Virus record (IMG/VR): IMGVR_UViG_3300046524_000002
Span: 1-20,718 of that record
Origin: a virus
DNA: 20,718 nt
Reading direction: 5' to 3' (one strand)
Shown one piece after another: positions 1 through 19,646 of this stretch (the stretch's first letter is position 1; every line of letters begins with the position of its first letter). The position numbers were made by a program, and so were the translations under genes. The notes beneath the pieces are model-generated. The model was not told the DNA's origin. It saw only the letters and a program-made list of their open reading frames with translations, and searched no databases.

Positions 1-1492
1 CGTTAACAACCATGTTCCCGGTAAGGATAAGTGCACCAGCCGATGCGCGCGTTTGAGCCGCGCAAACAGAACTGCTGTCTCCCGGCGTACCGACGATGAT
101 AGCGTGGCTGCTGTTCGGGAAGTTGGACGACATCTTGAGGATCGTCGAGTAGACGCCTGTACCCTTCAGGATAACACCATCAGGGATGAACAGAACACTC
201 GTGAACATCATAGTGCCCTTCGGAAGAAGGACCGTATGACCGGCACCGCCGCCACTATCAAAGCCGGGGAAGGTTTGCATGGAAGCGAAGTTCATCGCGT
301 TCTGCAAAGCTGCACGGCAGTCCGTAGCGCCAATGTCACCACCGCCCGATGCTAACTGCGATCTGTTGGGGTCCCAGTCTGCCTTAACTCCGAACGCACA
401 AGCGTCGATGCCTTCCGGTCCCGGCACATACACCCACCAGCCACCGTTGGTGTTGTCGATAGTACCGTTCGGCAAGTACCGATCAGTAGAACGAACACCA
501 CCATACAACGGCTGTTTTAATGCGCGCTTGAACGTGATGACGTTGCAGTCACCAACGACATCGTAGCCAGCGCAACGCGCAAGCTGCACCGGAGGCACAG
601 CCGCAAGCGCGAGAGCCGCGCGAGACGAGAACTCACGGACGTTTGGTCCGGTAAGGTCAAGCTGCCAGTAGTTGCCCGCAACGTCAGCGAACGACATTGG
701 ACCGCCGACCGTACCGGGGATGTATATTTCCTTGGTGACGGGCTTTCCAACTGCGTCACGGACGATGCCGACGACGGAGGTAACGGGAATGGTTGCGGCC
801 TGCGCCTGTGCGCGAGTGTCGAACCAGCGCATCTGGACGCCGCTAACCGTATCGGCAGCAGCAACCGCAATGTCGCGTGCATCTTCAGCCGCAGCGAGTG
901 CAGCCTGTGCATCCGCTTCAGCGGCTTCCGCCGCGCTCTGAGACGCCAGCGCCTGTGCGAGCGCAGTCTCCGCGCCGTCGCGATCTTCCGCCGCGTCTGC
1001 GGCAGCGGCAACAGCGATCTCGGCTTCGATGACGCTAGTATGAGTATCAACGTATGTCTTCGTAGCAACGTCATCGGCTGCTACAGGCTCGCGCACGTTA
1101 ACAATGCTGAAGCCGCCTGCATCCAAGTCCTGTGTCAAGGTCGAGAAGCGACCGTCGAGAACCTCATGGATAGCCATCATAGCTTGCTTCTGAGCAATCA
1201 TGAGATTGTCTTCGTCAAGTTGATCGCCGTTGTCGAAGTCGATCCGTAGAACGTCCTTGTCCACGGTACGTTCAAATACAACGTGGACGCCGTTGCCAGC
1301 GGGAGTACCGCCGACTTGAATTAGATTGGTCGATAGAAAGGTGATTGGCCTATAAGACGGTCCGCCACTGCCATCCGTCTCTGTACCCACTCTGCACGTA
1401 ACGTCCGTTTCGAGCAGGTAGTCCAGAGCGAAGTTCACTGCGAACTGCGTAGTAGAGCCATCACCTGTAGCCACGACCCGCGAATAGGCCAT
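1..1492 (-). CDS. Tail fibre / tailspike protein, N-terminal 497 residues (C-terminus outside window)
   Basis: The frame is open from an ATG at 1492 to the window edge with no stop, so the gene is cut at its 3' end. Upstream is AAGGAG (1500-1505), seven bases before the ATG. Residues 1 to about 150 (MAYSRVVATGDGSTTQFAVNF..., ending near VATKTYVD) look like the T7 gp17 N-terminal domain that anchors the fibre to the tail. Residues about 155-219 are very Ala-rich with Asp/Glu/Arg (AAAADAAEDRDGAE), probably a trimeric coiled coil. From about residue 368 (FGVKADWDPN, then TDCRAALQNAMNF, LLPKG, GVILKGTG) the pattern is that of the pectate-lyase-3 beta-helix fold found in capsule- or polysaccharide-degrading tailspikes. 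Inference: receptor binding with possible depolymerase activity; the catalytic residues are not in view. The gene follows its own promoter-like site and a large inverted repeat. Anchor and helix calls are by motif pattern only. Confidence 0.9.
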   Translation of the reverse strand, partial: MAYSRVVATGDGSTTQFAVNFALDYLLETDVTCRVGTETDGSGGPSYRPITFLSTNLIQVGGTPAGNGVHVVFERTVDKDVLRIDFDNGDQLDEDNLMIAQKQAMMAIHEVLDGRFSTLTQDLDAGGFSIVNVREPVAADDVATKTYVDTHTSVIEAEIAVAAAADAAEDRDGAETALAQALASQSAAEAAEADAQAALAAAEDARDIAVAAADTVSGVQMRWFDTRAQAQAATIPVTSVVGIVRDAVGKPVTKEIYIPGTVGGPMSFADVAGNYWQLDLTGPNVREFSSRAALALAAVPPVQLARCAGYDVVGDCNVITFKRALKQPLYGGVRSTDRYLPNGTIDNTNGGWWVYVPGPEGIDACAFGVKADWDPNRSQLASGGGDIGATDCRAALQNAMNFASMQTFPGFDSGGGAGHTVLLPKGTMMFTSVLFIPDGVILKGTGVYSTILKMSSNFPNSSHAIIVGTPGDSSSVCAAQTRASAGALILTGNMVVN

Positions 1493-1546
1493 ATAGTAAC
1501 TCCTTGTATCTCCTAATAGGGAGGTACAGGTTCACTATATGGCCTA
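1485..1546. repeat. 62-bp dyad: 13-bp perfect inverted repeat enclosing a second hairpin
   Basis: The outer arms are 1485-1497 (TAGGCCATATAGT) and 1534-1546 (ACTATATGGCCTA), perfectly complementary over 13 bp. Nested inside is a 9-bp stem, 1505-1513 with 1520-1528, closed by the six-base loop TAATAG and containing one T-G pair. The left arm includes the fibre start codon (1490-1492) and its next two codons. The right arm lies just after the stop codon of the preceding internal virion gene (1552-1554). No U-tract follows on the minus strand, so this does not look like an intrinsic terminator. Confidence 0.8.
1508..1530 (-). promoter_or_regulatory. Predicted phage RNA polymerase promoter upstream of the tail fibre gene
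   Basis: The minus strand carries the 12-base core CCTCCCTATTAG (1524 to 1513) followed by GAGATACA. The segment CTCCCTATTAGGAGA matches the T7 promoter segment CTCACTATAGGGAGA at 12 of 15 positions without gaps. The surrounding 25 bases (1505-1529) are identical to the copy before the capsid gene. A start near 1513 would leave a leader of about 20 bases holding the fibre's Shine-Dalgarno sequence. The identity is seen directly; the promoter role is inferred from position at a gene-block boundary and the T7 resemblance. Confidence 0.65.
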
Positions 1547-5250: not shown

Positions 5251-5263
5251 CGTTACTCCTAGT

Positions 5264-5292
5264 GCTGGCCTGTACGTGATGCACAGGCCAGC
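5264..5292. repeat. Perfect 10-bp inverted repeat between the two large internal virion genes
   Basis: GCTGGCCTGT (5264-5273) and ACAGGCCAGC (5283-5292) are exact reverse complements with a nine-base loop. The hairpin fills most of the gap between the stop of the upstream gene (5300-5302) and the AGGAG ribosome-binding site of the next gene (minus strand, just before the ATG at 5250). No run of U follows it in the minus-strand RNA, so a classical intrinsic terminator is unlikely. RNase processing, mRNA stabilisation or translational insulation are possible. Confidence 0.75.
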
Positions 5293-5299
5293 CGGTTAA

Positions 5300-12478: not shown

Positions 12479-12495
12479 TTAGTAGTCTCCAATGC

Positions 12496-12526
12496 AAAAA
12501 GCCCCGGCCCAATTAAGGACCGGGGC
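12496..12526 (-). terminator. Rho-independent terminator after the major capsid gene
   Basis: On the minus strand GCCCCGGTCC, loop TTAATT and GGGCCGGGGC form a 10-bp GC-rich stem with one U-G pair, followed directly by TTTTT and then G. It starts about 20 bases after the capsid stop codon (12546-12548). T7 has its main late terminator at the same place, after gene 10, where partial termination makes capsid mRNA more abundant than tail mRNA. The same role is inferred here. Confidence 0.93.
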
Positions 12527-12545
12527 AATGTAGGTTAGTGCAGGC

Positions 12546-13520
12546 TTACGCCTTGAACACCGCGCCGCACACGTCGGGGCGATTGATCGAGACACCGAAC
12601 GCGAGGAAGCTGTCGATGAACCACTGCTTCTCTTCGCGGTTGAACCAGATGTCGCTCTGAAGCGGAATGGTCTCACCGGCGAGGAAGGACTTCGGGTGCA
12701 GGATGACTGCAACGGCCTTCGCCTGCGCGGCCGACACGTCGTAAGCATTCGCGTTCTGCGCGTTGCTCAGGAAGTGCCCGGTGATCGCGGCAGTCGGGAT
12801 GCGCGCAGTCTTGACGATACGGACGCCCTTCAACTCGTAGATCATTCCCTTCGCGAAGTCACCGTTACCGGCAGCGAAGTCACGCGAGATAAGCTTGTTG
12901 TTGTTCAACAGCGTCTCGAACTCGGTAGGACGAACGAAGATGACGAGTTCAGTAGTCTCGATCTCTTCCTCTTCCATGTCCACGATGATGCCCGCGATAG
13001 CCTTGTACAGCTTGTCGGGATCGAGTTCATCGAGAGCGGCGGACAGCGTGGCGGACTTGCCAGCGCCGATGGACTGCTTGGACGGGGAGCCGTCACCGAG
13101 GACAGGGGCCGCAGCGGTGCTGCCCTTGATGCCCATGATGATGAAAGCCTGATCGAAGAACTTGCCAAGCTCCTTGCCGTGATCCTGCGCAAGCTCCTGA
13201 CGCGCGTCGAAGTGCGTCTGAAGATCGTTCAGCATGGAACGGTTGTCGCGGGCGAGCACAACGGTATCGACGGTCAGCGAGACCTTGCCGAACGGCGTGA
13301 CTTCACCCTGCGGGCGGACGCCGGGGACCAGCGCCTTCAGCGTGGTACGACCAACGCGGTTATTCGAGATAGTGTCGGTGCCCCGGACGGGGCGAACTTT
13401 CGCGTACTGCCGCATGATGGCGGACTTCGCGAACTGGCTTTCGACCATGCCACCGTACTGCTCAAGCAGTAGCGAGACATCCACATCGGAAAGGTCGGGG
13501 CCGGGAATTTCGTAAGACAA
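12546..13520 (-). CDS. Major capsid protein (T7 gp10-like), 324 aa
   Basis: This is the HK97-fold shell protein of the T7/phiKMV group, by position after scaffold, by length (T7 gp10A is 345 aa) and by pattern: ESQFAKSAIMRQYAKVRPVRG near the N-terminus, then a spine-helix region (ARDNRSMLNDLQTHFDARQE), LVIFVRPTEFETLLNN in the centre, and HPKSFLAGETIPLQ and AFGVSINRPDVCGAV at the end. The only reasonable start is TTG at 13518-13520, with AGGAG five bases upstream; the first internal Met is residue 25. A TTG start is unusual for what should be the most abundant phage protein. The gene is preceded by one strong and one diverged promoter-like site and followed by a terminator, so it can form its own high-level transcript. 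No second, frameshifted form is evident. Confidence 0.94.
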   Translation of the reverse strand: MSYEIPGPDLSDVDVSLLLEQYGGMVESQFAKSAIMRQYAKVRPVRGTDTISNNRVGRTTLKALVPGVRPQGEVTPFGKVSLTVDTVVLARDNRSMLNDLQTHFDARQELAQDHGKELGKFFDQAFIIMGIKGSTAAAPVLGDGSPSKQSIGAGKSATLSAALDELDPDKLYKAIAGIIVDMEEEEIETTELVIFVRPTEFETLLNNNKLISRDFAAGNGDFAKGMIYELKGVRIVKTARIPTAAITGHFLSNAQNANAYDVSAAQAKAVAVILHPKSFLAGETIPLQSDIWFNREEKQWFIDSFLAFGVSINRPDVCGAVFKA

Positions 13521-13523
13521 TGT

Positions 13524-13546
13524 TTCTCCTATAGGGACGTTACGCG
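13524..13546 (-). promoter_or_regulatory. Diverged second promoter-like copy overlapping the capsid ribosome-binding site
   Basis: The minus strand reads GTCCCTATAGGAGAAACA directly before the TTG start of the capsid gene. Compared with CTCCCTATTAGGAGATACA of the other sites it has one base deleted and two substitutions. Its AGGAG clearly serves as the capsid Shine-Dalgarno sequence. It may be a tandem promoter with a leader of about nine bases, or a decayed duplicate kept for its ribosome-binding site. The resemblance is seen; function is uncertain. Confidence 0.35.
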
Positions 13547-13553
13547 GACGGGT

Positions 13554-13585
13554 CCGCTGTATCTCCTAATAGGGAGGTACAGCGG
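13554..13585. repeat. 13-bp hairpin around the capsid promoter-like site
   Basis: Arms 13554-13566 (CCGCTGTATCTCC) and 13573-13585 (GGAGGTACAGCGG) pair over 13 bp with a single T-G pair and the loop TAATAG. The inner nine pairs are shared with the tail fibre site; the outer CCGC/GCGG pairs are specific to this copy, so the pairing extends beyond the conserved sequence. In minus-strand RNA the T-G pair becomes a C-A mismatch. No U-tract follows. Confidence 0.78.
13561..13583 (-). promoter_or_regulatory. Predicted phage RNA polymerase promoter upstream of the capsid gene
   Basis: The minus strand contains the core CCTCCCTATTAG (13577 to 13566) followed by GAGATACA, within 25 bases (13558-13582) identical to the site before the tail fibre gene. 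It lies in the 77-base gap between scaffold and capsid, the place of the strong phi10 promoter in T7. A start near 13566 gives a leader of about 46 bases. Promoter function is inferred from repetition, T7-like core and location. Confidence 0.68.
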
Positions 13586-13597
13586 CTGGTCCGTATG

Positions 13598-14476
13598 TTA
13601 GATACCAGCTTTCATGCCAGCTTTCCGCCGGGCATCCAGCGCCTTGATCTCTGTAGACGGGGCACGACGGTTATGCGCCGCTTCGAGTTCACGCACGTAC
13701 TCAGCGCGGGTCAGCGCCTTACCGATCACTGTACCAGTGCTGTCACCGACAGCGAGCTTGGCAGTACCGAGGCCCTTCTGATCCGGTGCAGCGTTGTACA
13801 TGCGCAGCAGTTCCTTCGCACCGAGGTCTGCACGGAAGCCGCCCTCGTCCAGCATCGTGCGGATGTCATCCACCTTAGCCTTGAACGCAGGATCAGCCTT
13901 CTCAGTCTTCTGTGCCCACGCACGTACGACGGCCCAGTTCTCCTCACCGCCGAACACTTCAAGCACCTTCGCGACACTTGCTTCGCTCTGTGCCTTCATA
14001 CCGTTGTAGTGCGCAGTGACGCCCGCCATGACGAGCGTAGCCTTGTCCTTGCCGAGCTTGGCTTCCAAGCCAGCAACGTCAACGTCGTTGAGGTCGCCGG
14101 ACTTCAGTGCCTTGGCAAAGTATTCGTTCGCTGCGTTCGGGCCGAGACCGGCTTCCTTCAGCAGATTTACAGCGGCCTGTGCAGCCGGGCTGTCGTCGAA
14201 CTTGGTGTATTCCTTCAGCGGGCCAGCGGCTTCCTTATCGGCAGCAGCCTTGTCCGCAGCCGCCTTGTCAGCAGCGGCCTTCTCTTCCGCAGCCTTCGCA
14301 GGATCGACTACGACAACGGTATTCTCTTCGTCGTCGCCCTTCTTAGGCGGTTCATTGGAAGCAGCGGCGGGAGCCTTCGGGCCTTTGCCCGTCGTGCTAT
14401 CGTCGAGGTTCTCCAACGTAGCGCCCTGCGCAGCGAGCGTCTTGTCTTCTACAGTAGTCGTAGTCTCGGTCGTCAT
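13598..14476 (-). CDS. Capsid assembly scaffolding protein (T7 gp9-like), 292 aa
   Basis: It lies between portal and capsid, is close to T7 gp9 in length (307 aa), and is acidic, Ala/Lys/Glu-rich and predicted highly helical, as scaffolds are. The N-terminal third is low-complexity (MTTETTTTVEDKT, a Pro/Ala stretch, then a KAAAD repeat at residues 66-80). The middle (EAGLGPNAANEYFAKALKSG, GGEENWAVVRAWAQ) and the basic C-terminus (NRRAPSTEIKALDARRKAGM), which probably binds the shell protein, match the family pattern. The start ATG (14474-14476) overlaps the portal stop as ATGA. The role is temporary: it guides procapsid assembly and leaves before or during packaging. Confidence 0.9.
   Translation of the reverse strand: MTTETTTTVEDKTLAAQGATLENLDDSTTGKGPKAPAAASNEPPKKGDDEENTVVVVDPAKAAEEKAAADKAAADKAAADKEAAGPLKEYTKFDDSPAAQAAVNLLKEAGLGPNAANEYFAKALKSGDLNDVDVAGLEAKLGKDKATLVMAGVTAHYNGMKAQSEASVAKVLEVFGGEENWAVVRAWAQKTEKADPAFKAKVDDIRTMLDEGGFRADLGAKELLRMYNAAPDQKGLGTAKLAVGDSTGTVIGKALTRAEYVRELEAAHNRRAPSTEIKALDARRKAGMKAGI
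14237..14281 (-). repeat. 15-bp tandem repeat encoding (KAAAD)x3 in the scaffold protein
   Basis: Codons for residues 66-80 encode KAAAD three times and continue into a partial fourth unit (KEAAG). The DNA units differ at synonymous positions, so the peptide repeat is better conserved than the DNA. It would form an Ala-rich helical linker. Confidence 0.8.
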
Positions 14477-17033: not shown

Positions 17034-17173
17034 GGTGCGTGAAGCGTGATCGCCTCGAAGAGACCAGCCTCGCGCAGAAACGTGTCGAGTGTTTCCGGCA
17101 AAGGCTGATCTCTTGCGACGAACCTAATCGCTTCCTCTAGTTTGTCCTCGTCGGACAATTCAGCGTAGCTCAA
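17018..17173 (-). CDS. Small hypothetical protein, 51 aa, TTG start, first gene after the RNA polymerase
   Basis: Reading from TTG at 17171-17173 gives LSYAELSDEDKLEEAIRFVA, then RDQPLPETLDTFLREAGLFE and AITLHAPCRPS, ending at TAG (17018-17020). AGGA lies seven bases before the TTG. The acidic, helix-like sequence and its position as first gene of the late block, 26 bases after a predicted promoter start, support a real gene. It overlaps the next gene by 16 bases. I recognise no family. Confidence 0.62.
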   Translation of the reverse strand: MSYAELSDEDKLEEAIRFVARDQPLPETLDTFLREAGLFEAITLHAPCRPS

Positions 17174-17180
17174 TGGTTTT

Positions 17181-17206
17181 CCTATTAGCGGCTATTATCT
17201 AATAGG
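17181..17206. repeat. 8-bp perfect inverted repeat joining promoter core and ribosome-binding site
   Basis: CCTATTAG (17181-17188) and CTAATAGG (17199-17206) are exact reverse complements separated by ten bases. One arm is part of the promoter-like core; the other contains the AGG of the Shine-Dalgarno sequence of the 51-aa gene. A further inverted pair, GGCTA/TAGCC on the minus strand, lies around the core. Confidence 0.65.
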
Positions 17207-17216
17207 GAGGGAACTA
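17194..17216 (-). promoter_or_regulatory. Predicted phage RNA polymerase promoter at the end of the RNA polymerase gene
   Basis: The minus strand reads TTCCCTCCCTATTAGATAATAG; the 12-base core (17210 to 17199) is identical to the capsid and fibre sites, while the downstream bases (ATAATAG rather than GAGATACA) differ. It begins at the RNA polymerase stop codon (17214-17216) and would start transcription of the whole virion block, about 26 bases before the first small gene. Inferred promoter. Confidence 0.6.
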
Positions 17217-19646
17217 GCCAAAGAAGTACAGCGAACGCTTCACGTCTTGGATGTCGAGCGAGCCATACGCGGGAAGCGGCTCAAGCTCGTACTCAGTATC
17301 CTTGTACTGCTCAGCGAGTGCTTGCAGTGGATCGTGGTCGGAATACAGCGCCACGAAAGTCTCTCGGATGATCTCGCCCAGTCGTTCAGTGTCTGCGGCA
17401 TGTGTGCCGAAGTCATCATGAATGAACGCTAACGGTGCGATACCTTCCGCCTTGCATTGTCGAACTACCGCGCGCATGTGCGCCGCGTCTTGTGAGTGAA
17501 CGAAGTTAGGTGCGACGCCGTTGCGCTGTCTGTTGCGGTCGATGTCGTCGGTGAAGTTTCCAACTCGTAGCTGGAAGCGTCCACCTAGCTGCGTCTCGAT
17601 CTTCGTCGAGTTGATGACACGAGTGCCCATGTAGATCGGGAAGCCATCGTAGGCTGTCCATGTGATAGGCTCGTTCTCTTTGCTCAAGACACTTGCTGCG
17701 CGCTGTAGCCACTTCATTGCGTCACGCGCAGCGACGACAACCTCTCCGATGCTCTCCCACATATACGGGGTAAGCCAGCACGACGCTTTGAAGTTGCCAT
17801 CGAAGTGCTCGCGGTCTGTCGTCATGACGTACTCGAAGATGTACTTCGTGCATGACTGCCGCGTCGATCCGTACGGCAATGTCATCACCGGCCGCTTGGC
17901 TAACTTCCTTGGTATGGTTCCTTCACCGTGCTTCTCAATATATGAACGCCAGCCATCACTGAACGGATCATCTGAAGATTGCGTTCGTAGTTTTCCAGTG
18001 CAGACTTTAGCGACTGCTGTGTAGATGTCAGCGGGTACGGCAGCAGGTACAAGGTTCGTGTAAGTCCCTCCGACGTTATCGCGGAGCATGGCGCTGAAGT
18101 GTTGCAGCCCGTTGCACGTACCGTCTCGACCAACTGGGATGTGGGATACGAAGTCCCCGATGTCACGTCCTAGTGCCTCCAATGCTAATGCGTCTCTGTA
18201 CTCGAACAGCCACGCTAGGAATTGCCACGGCTTGTCCGCATTGCCCCACACGTCAGTATGAGACATCGGATCGTTCGCCGCTCGCAGGAAGAACTCCTGC
18301 TGTTCGTCAACCCACTTCACGCGGTCGTCGTAGCTTACCTTGTCGTGACCGAAGCGGTTCGCACCGTTCACCCGATGCCAGTACCATCCCGTAGCGCCCA
18401 GTGCTTTACTCTCGCGTGGTCGTAGTAGTCCCTTGGCAATGTCTGCGCCTTGTGGGTTGAAGCCGCTCGTCGTCGGGTAAGCTCGTCCTCTGCTGTCGTA
18501 GTACCACACGTACCAGAAGCGATCATACTGAGTGTACTCGCTTGCGAGCCGGATGATGCGGCTGATCTGGAACGACTTGCTGCGCCGTTCCTTTTCCTGC
18601 GTGTGGATTTCAGCGGCTTCATGTTTCCAGTCCGTGAGTTGTTCTTCCTCCGCCTCCGTAAGCTCCGTGCCTTTGGCGAACGGGCTTGGCGGAATAGTCA
18701 GAGGTTCTTTCGGAGGCATACCGATTGTGAGGTTCGCGTTCCAGCACGCAGTCACGACTGCAAGTATCTCCGTGTTAACTTCCCACGGTACAGCTTGCAG
18801 AGCGTTCAGCGCCTCCATGGCGAACGACAAGTCACCGGCCTGTACGTGCTGGCGATGTCGCTTGCCGCTCGTCTTAATCATCGGCGTAGCCTGCCGAAGT
18901 TCAGGACTGTAGTAGCCTCCCTGATTGAGACCAGTCCAATCGTCCGGTGGAATGATGCACGGCATCTTGTCGGGGAACAGAAACTTGCTGAACTCCTTGT
19001 GCTCGTCGATCCACTTCTTTGCGCTGTCGGTCGGCACCAGCAGCGTACGGGTCTTGCCGTGCTGGTTGAACTGCCGCTTCTCGATCAGGTCGGTGTTCGT
19101 CAGGATCACGTCCACCAGCTTCATGCCGACTTCCGCACGCTCCGATACCGTCCACTCTATCCACTCGTCCTGCATCTCGTTCGCTTTGTGCGTCAGCACT
19201 CGATGCATGAACCTGTAGTCCTTCGTGCCCTTGCGCTTGAAGTCCTTCTTGATCGCGTCGTAGTAGTCGCCGTGCATCTCTTGGAAACGGGAGAACCGAA
19301 CCTCGTCCTCAACCATCCTGCCGATGCGTGTAGCGAGGCCCGCCAGCGGTGCCTCGTGAGTGAACGAATTGAACACAGCCTGCATCGCAAGATACATCGC
19401 CTTGTCGGGCGAGGCTCTGTGTAAGAGCGTCCTGATCTTGCCGTGCTTACCCGGCCGATTGGTAGTAACGAAAGAAGTCAGCGCCTCGATCAGAGGCAGC
19501 ATGAACTCCTGTAACAGCCTCTGTGCGTATGCAGTCTCTGCACCCCGCCCGGCTTCTTCTGCTTCCTTTGTTGCACGCTCGAAAGTCTCAGCACCTTTGA
19601 AGACCATCGTACGTTCGAGTTCTAGCTGACTGTCTATCGTCTGCAT
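17214..19646 (-). CDS. T7-type single-subunit DNA-directed RNA polymerase, 810 aa
   Basis: All catalytic residues of the T7 family are present: D508 in GRDGTCNGLQHFSAMLRD (T7 D537), R580, K584 and Y592 in PRKLAKRPVMTLPYG (T7 R627, K631, Y639), and H743-D744 in FIHDDFGTH (T7 H811-D812). The N-terminal domain begins with LELERTMVFKGAETFERA and the C-terminus is LYFFG, compared with FAFA in T7. The region matching the promoter specificity loop (about 689-707, GRFQLRVGNFTDDIDRNRQR, before GVAPNFVHSQDAAH) is about three residues shorter than in T7, so it should read a different promoter. The ATG follows the endonuclease stop by one base; the Shine-Dalgarno sequence is weak. Placement after the replication genes, directly before virion genes, is the phiKMV-like order, which implies that host polymerase transcribes a large early region first. 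Confidence 0.97.
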   Translation of the reverse strand: MQTIDSQLELERTMVFKGAETFERATKEAEEAGRGAETAYAQRLLQEFMLPLIEALTSFVTTNRPGKHGKIRTLLHRASPDKAMYLAMQAVFNSFTHEAPLAGLATRIGRMVEDEVRFSRFQEMHGDYYDAIKKDFKRKGTKDYRFMHRVLTHKANEMQDEWIEWTVSERAEVGMKLVDVILTNTDLIEKRQFNQHGKTRTLLVPTDSAKKWIDEHKEFSKFLFPDKMPCIIPPDDWTGLNQGGYYSPELRQATPMIKTSGKRHRQHVQAGDLSFAMEALNALQAVPWEVNTEILAVVTACWNANLTIGMPPKEPLTIPPSPFAKGTELTEAEEEQLTDWKHEAAEIHTQEKERRSKSFQISRIIRLASEYTQYDRFWYVWYYDSRGRAYPTTSGFNPQGADIAKGLLRPRESKALGATGWYWHRVNGANRFGHDKVSYDDRVKWVDEQQEFFLRAANDPMSHTDVWGNADKPWQFLAWLFEYRDALALEALGRDIGDFVSHIPVGRDGTCNGLQHFSAMLRDNVGGTYTNLVPAAVPADIYTAVAKVCTGKLRTQSSDDPFSDGWRSYIEKHGEGTIPRKLAKRPVMTLPYGSTRQSCTKYIFEYVMTTDREHFDGNFKASCWLTPYMWESIGEVVVAARDAMKWLQRAASVLSKENEPITWTAYDGFPIYMGTRVINSTKIETQLGGRFQLRVGNFTDDIDRNRQRNGVAPNFVHSQDAAHMRAVVRQCKAEGIAPLAFIHDDFGTHAADTERLGEIIRETFVALYSDHDPLQALAEQYKDTEYELEPLPAYGSLDIQDVKRSLYFFG

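Follow-up and report, generated by a model that had tools for sequence, protein, structure and literature searches.

The two late promoters of this phage fragment, which precede the capsid and tail fibre genes and are presumed to be strong, each lie in an inverted repeat; its left arm would precede the transcription start and its right arm would fall in the leader. Since the left arm precedes the putative +1, only read-through mRNA can form the hairpin: RNA carrying both arms would fold into a long hairpin, and promoter-started RNA, devoid of the left arm, would form none. We consider it fairly probable, from predicted folds and by analogy with known systems, that these repeats mark read-through mRNA, the fibre gene being gated and the capsid RNA being cut or insulated. 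The fibre hairpin would hide the Shine-Dalgarno (SD) and the AUG, so that fibre protein would be made mainly from promoter-started transcripts. At the capsid gene, the hairpin would most likely cut or insulate the scaffold-capsid read-through RNA in an RNase III-type manner; in promoter-started RNA, the right arm would be freed for a 5' hairpin in the leader. The phage would probably treat read-through and promoter-started messages differently.

The window, that is the whole stretch of 20,718 nucleotides analysed here (positions 1-20,718 of IMGVR_UViG_3300046524_000002), is a genome fragment, the relatives measuring 45-47 kb. The phage is T7-like and of the Bradyrhizobium type, and its genes lie on the minus strand in the order RNA polymerase, portal, scaffold, capsid, tail proteins, internal virion protein and tail fibre. 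The polymerase (RNAP) gene (17214-19646, minus strand, 810 aa) encodes a T7-type single-subunit enzyme, matching phrog_414 (E 4e-280) and T7 RNAP 1aro (E 1e-104, residues 6-809 aligned). The scaffold gene (13598-14476, minus strand; phrog_1018, E 1.5e-36) lies upstream of the capsid hairpin and is followed by the major capsid protein gene (12546-13520, minus strand; phrog_267, E 9e-83). The tail fibre gene (2-1492, minus strand) runs off the window and was assigned from relatives annotated as tail fibre. Directly after the capsid gene (~12495-12530, minus strand) we observed a strong terminator-like hairpin, GCCCCGGTCCTTAATTGGGCCGGGGC, followed by TTTTT. A terminator after the capsid gene has likewise been reported in T7 and LUZ100, and Paso carries an annotated terminator at the corresponding place.

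On the plus strand, positions 13554-13585 read CCGCTGTATCTCCTAATAGGGAGGTACAGCGG, an exact dyad. An identical 25-mer, TGTATCTCCTAATAGGGAGGTACAG, is present at 1505-1529 and 13558-13582, and beyond it each site has private self-complementary arms, which confirms the original prediction. The capsid arms are CCGC/GCGG plus an outer CGGAC/GTCCG pair (13589-13593/13545-13549), and the fibre arms are a 13-bp pair, TAGGCCATATAGT/ACTATATGGCCTA (1485-1497/1534-1546). The prediction had also described a shared inner stem with a TAATAG loop; the dyad holds, but the stem contains a C.A mismatch on the mRNA strand, where the opposite strand has a U.G wobble, and the mRNA loop is CUAUUA because the genes run on the minus strand. 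In 60-base windows of the plus strand, the two dyads are the two most stable folds in 20.7 kb (-40.7 and -34.9 kcal/mol). Their folds on the minus (mRNA) strand (-28.6 and -27.4) fall in the lowest 0.6-0.7% of windows. The dyads are real and beyond chance. An Rfam search of the window returned no match at gathering score.

At the capsid site, the putative promoter core CCTCCCTATTAG occupies 13566-13577 of the minus strand, with a predicted +1 at G13566. The left arm (13578-13593; CGGAC cag CCGCTGTA in mRNA sense) is upstream of this start and pairs with 13545-13561; its own duplex has -22.4 kcal/mol (p = 0.008 vs shuffled left arm). The right arm (13545-13565) contains GCGGA (13553-13557), which can alternatively pair with TCCGC (13544-13548) in a 5' leader hairpin. 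The remaining leader (13518-13544) carries, according to its sequence and the leader folds, a UCCC able to close on the 5' GGAG, and includes the SD GGAG (13526-13529) and the TTG start (13520). At the fibre site, the same putative core CCTCCCTATTAG (1513-1524, minus strand; predicted +1 at G1513, by T7 analogy) is positioned between the arms. The left arm (1525-1546; TAGGCCATATAGTGAACCTGTA in mRNA sense) is again upstream of the start and includes one side of the 13-bp outer block (1534-1546/1485-1497). The right arm (1485-1512, minus strand) includes the SD AAGGAG (1500-1505) and the ATG (1490-1492), and the duplex reaches -27.4 kcal/mol (p = 0.002 vs shuffled left arm).

Allowing 3 mismatches, a search with the core CCTCCCTATTAGGAGA gave 3 matches in the window vs 0.05 expected. 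By T7 analogy, the G that follows TATTA was taken as the start site. The third copy (17199-17210, minus strand; the match spans 17195-17210 in the 3-mismatch search) is just downstream of the RNAP gene and provides a dyad-less natural control (left:right duplex p = 0.57). Related genomes have ~5 core copies each, nearly all on the coding strand; these follow the RNAP gene, precede capsid, lie on either side of fibre and occur near an end. This recurrence on the coding strand is the sequence pattern of phage promoters. A promoter prediction published for the relative RHEph02, TTAATCCTCACTATTAGGATAA (PMC11475235), is of the same motif type. By analogy, the core would be the promoter for the encoded T7-type polymerase, its activity and strength being presumed. 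An inverted repeat, CCTATTAG...CTAATAGG, was also seen at 17182-17205, with a left half that is the RNAP-downstream promoter core; it recurs in the relative L048 and was absent from the other RNAP-downstream sites seen.

We then compared the core and the dyad across close relatives, taking 30 bases on either side of each core and scoring its own left:right duplex vs shuffled left arms. All distinct sites of the clade (9/9 capsid and 8/8 fibre) form 13-23 left:right pairs, with duplexes of -19 to -31 kcal/mol (p 0.002-0.018). Seven RNAP-downstream sites with the same core showed no left:right dyad (p 0.17-0.81 in relatives), and at the other core sites of relatives the dyad was statistically unsupported, with one borderline case (L046, p 0.048). 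The fibre site of RHEph08 also has the same core without a dyad. This distribution argues that the dyad is not part of promoter recognition and, as judged from sequence, it belongs to the capsid and fibre genes.

Among its options, the original prediction had proposed a hairpin-form promoter, in which extruded DNA hairpins are recognised as by the N4 virion RNA polymerase. As in N4, the dyad overlaps the promoter, and extruded hairpins would be stable. However, the prediction had itself set an intact core without a dyad against this option, and such cores were found downstream of the RNAP gene, at most other coding-strand sites and at the RHEph08 fibre. Moreover, the encoded polymerase is of the single-subunit T7 type, and N4-like promoters combine a stem of 4-5 bases with a loop of 3 (PMC3715699), whereas the window stems are long with a loop of 6. 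Neither the short stem, the 3-base loop nor the giant virion polymerase of N4 was seen at the window sites. Dyad-less cores, the T7-type RNAP and the lack of an N4 vRNAP-like stem and loop largely refute this option, and we give it almost no credence.

Swapping arms between site types weakened the predicted duplexes (mean -9.8 for capsid-left with fibre-right and -12.7 for fibre-left with capsid-right, vs own-arm means of -22.8 for capsid and -27.5 for fibre); left arms thus suit their own site type alone. Another idea is that a dimeric protein binds the dyad, or that the dyad arose by chance from promoter sequence combined with SD complementarity. The inner CTCC/GGAG pair does follow from the promoter sequence itself, and an anti-SD sequence is short. 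Yet the arms reach far past the core and remain complementary even though they vary from site to site and from clade to clade, while a protein binding site would keep its sequence, which makes this explanation very unlikely.

The original prediction had held that structure, and not only sequence, is selected, and our comparisons support this: capsid and fibre sites of many relatives retain the dyad, which is missing at other core copies. Further backing comes from compensatory changes and from a second clade. Because bulges shift the stem register between phages, pairs were taken from the fold of each individual sequence. Double changes that preserve pairing affect 4 right-arm columns for capsid, such as two with A-U/G-C, and 5 for fibre, where 4/5 come from L044 and are decided by the placement of a 2-base indel. 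Two bases before the fibre AUG, the pair is G.U in L028/L037, C-G in L038 and A-U in the window. The comparison of related phages for compensatory changes thus yielded double changes, but not fine covariation within the capsid set, in which arm swapping costs little (p = 0.18, not significant). Within the fibre set the swap effect is modest (p = 0.028, with relatedness left in).

In a second clade (Paso, RHph_Y1_20, TM34, X3_9 and contig L151), a hairpin likewise encloses the capsid promoter in this position, and neither its arms nor the promoter sequence are related to those of the window clade. There, CCGCTTCT/AGAAGCGG in most members becomes CCGCCTCT/AGAGGCGG in X3_9, a compensatory double change. 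At the sequence level, the support for selection across clades is stronger than that from covariation within sets. Fourteen other relatives tested had no significant promoter-spanning pairing at capsid (p 0.13-0.94), and the feature is therefore clade-specific. Taken with the predicted folds, the comparisons indicate that the dyads are very probably functional RNA existing in read-through mRNA only. They may also have a role at the DNA level, because wobble-pair asymmetry gave no distinction between sense and antisense strands and the antisense fold is the more stable.

The burial of the fibre SD and AUG is, on the folding models, the strongest functional clue, and it was absent from the options first proposed. 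In the window, the predicted energy needed to open the fibre SD/AUG is 24.0 kcal/mol in read-through RNA vs 3.9 in promoter-started RNA, the former exceeding every other value among the 14 putative gene starts examined there. The same holds in 8/8 phages (predicted 14-27 kcal/mol in read-through vs 3-9 in promoter-started RNA). A gating role in translation is well motivated by a T4 precedent, to which the fibre site would be analogous. Long transcripts of T4 gene e form an inhibitory structure and give ~100-fold less lysozyme, and a late promoter within the 5' strand of this structure produces late transcripts without that strand (PMC3014915). I-TevI and mobE are also cited for a hairpin that buries the RBS in long transcripts (PMC3014915). 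The fibre site resembles gene e in having an RBS-burying hairpin in long RNA, with local transcripts that would lack the 5' strand and be translated. It differs from it in that the presumed promoter is that of a T7-type single-subunit polymerase, the gene encodes a tail fibre and a second copy in the window encloses the capsid promoter without hiding an RBS.

Ten isolates have another arrangement. No obvious stem spans their fibre promoter; a hairpin lies directly before it instead (-12.8 to -21.0 kcal/mol, shuffle p 0.002-0.11), in most cases capped by a UUCG loop. This upstream hairpin was absent at the five window-clade fibre sites tested. With an upstream hairpin in the ten isolates and a spanning one in the window clade, a hairpin at this boundary is therefore general.

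A boundary hairpin would also be expected if both dyads were sites for RNase III, or a similar enzyme, in read-through mRNA, cutting between scaffold and capsid and between internal virion protein and fibre, with the burial of the fibre RBS as a side effect. T7 places RNase III sites between late genes, and the window hairpins resemble them in lying at late-gene boundaries near phage promoters. Extended interrupted stems of 13-23 pairs at both sites, formed in read-through RNA only, would fit such processing, as would the different hairpin found just upstream of the fibre promoter in the ten isolates. However, with 13-23 pairs the stems rank among the shorter ones for the enzyme, and the fibre left arm follows the SD/AUG precisely, a match that processing alone does not need. 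The T7 sites are downstream of promoters and are formed in primary transcripts too, whereas the left arm in the window precedes the predicted +1. We hold processing at both genes to be possible, though rather doubtful as the full account.

The translational gating proposed for the fibre gene does not extend to the capsid gene. The predicted opening energy of the capsid RBS is about equal in read-through and promoter-started RNA, its SD and start not being buried, and gating therefore cannot be the function shared by both sites. In predicted folds of 9/9 members, the capsid right arm changes partner between the two RNAs: it binds the left arm when RNA is read through and a downstream segment when RNA starts at the promoter. 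For the window, the choice in read-through RNA is near even (0.44 vs 0.37). In most members, the promoter-started leader can close GGAG (+1 to +4) on a UCC(C) before the RBS. The individual 5' leader hairpins are weak vs shuffles (p 0.005-0.48). The T7 gene 10 leader (phi10) has a 5' GGGAGA...UUUCCC stem, and the capsid mRNA would likewise start with GGAG, which can close on a UCC(C) further down and so enclose a hairpin. Unlike that of T7, the leader hairpin of the window has a rival in read-through RNA, namely the upstream left arm. The capsid promoters of Paso, RHph_Y1_20, TM34 and X3_9 are also hairpin-enclosed, with a right arm that can re-pair downstream, but their promoter is wholly in the loop, and their fibre site has an upstream UUCG-type hairpin instead of a spanning dyad. 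Our best guess for the capsid hairpin is RNase III-type processing or insulation of the scaffold-capsid read-through RNA. In L057, L058 and L060, an extra hairpin inserted in the capsid leader repeats the left-arm sequence CCGCTGT (CGCTGT in L060) downstream, so that two near-identical partners compete for the right arm.

A purely transcriptional role is another explanation, the hairpins pausing, terminating or insulating polymerase that comes from upstream, and promoter-started transcripts escaping for want of the left arm. A promoter inside the loop gives exactly this logic of pause and escape, and Paso carries UUUU after its right arm. Neither window stem is followed by a U-tract, nor is any other stem in the window clade, and termination is therefore unlikely; the capsid gene, moreover, already has its own terminator-like hairpin and T-run (~12495-12530). 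A classical intrinsic terminator was rejected for the window clade, as no U-run directly follows either stem. Pausing, as first suggested, and termination find weak support in this clade. As a whole, we judge the transcriptional reading unlikely.

Returning to start-site-dependent marking of read-through RNA, the arrangement may, as a tentative proposal, be a general device of alphaproteobacterial T7-like phages. Late promoters would sit between competing RNA arms, the start site alone would select one of two exclusive leaders, and unrelated arms in at least two clades would serve the same end, gating fibre translation and setting the fate of the scaffold-capsid read-through RNA. Among open-licence papers, we found no description of a promoter-in-hairpin arrangement in T7-like phages. 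The nested late transcripts of these phages raise an old question, namely how the right amount is made from a gene that ends many overlapping mRNAs. A promoter inside a hairpin would answer it by sequence alone and, if true, would offer a compact start-site-dependent expression part for T7-type polymerases.

The 20-mer CCTCCCTATTAGGAGATACA matches 18 stretches of viral contigs and is also present in contigs of Bradyrhizobium sp. LTSP885 and B. retamae Ro19. Promoter/hairpin units were likewise observed in Bradyrhizobium genome contigs (L204-L208), one of them of 504 kb, which suggests that such T7-like phages integrate as prophages. Two further hairpins were seen on the minus strand of the window. 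One, at 17047-17119, is very stable (-40.8 kcal/mol in an 86-base fold) and lies close to small genes found between RNAP and portal. The other is a 12-bp GC-rich hairpin, CTGGCCTGTGC...GTACAGGCCAG (~5262-5293), without a promoter core, located in the gap just 5' of the Shine-Dalgarno of the internal virion protein gene.
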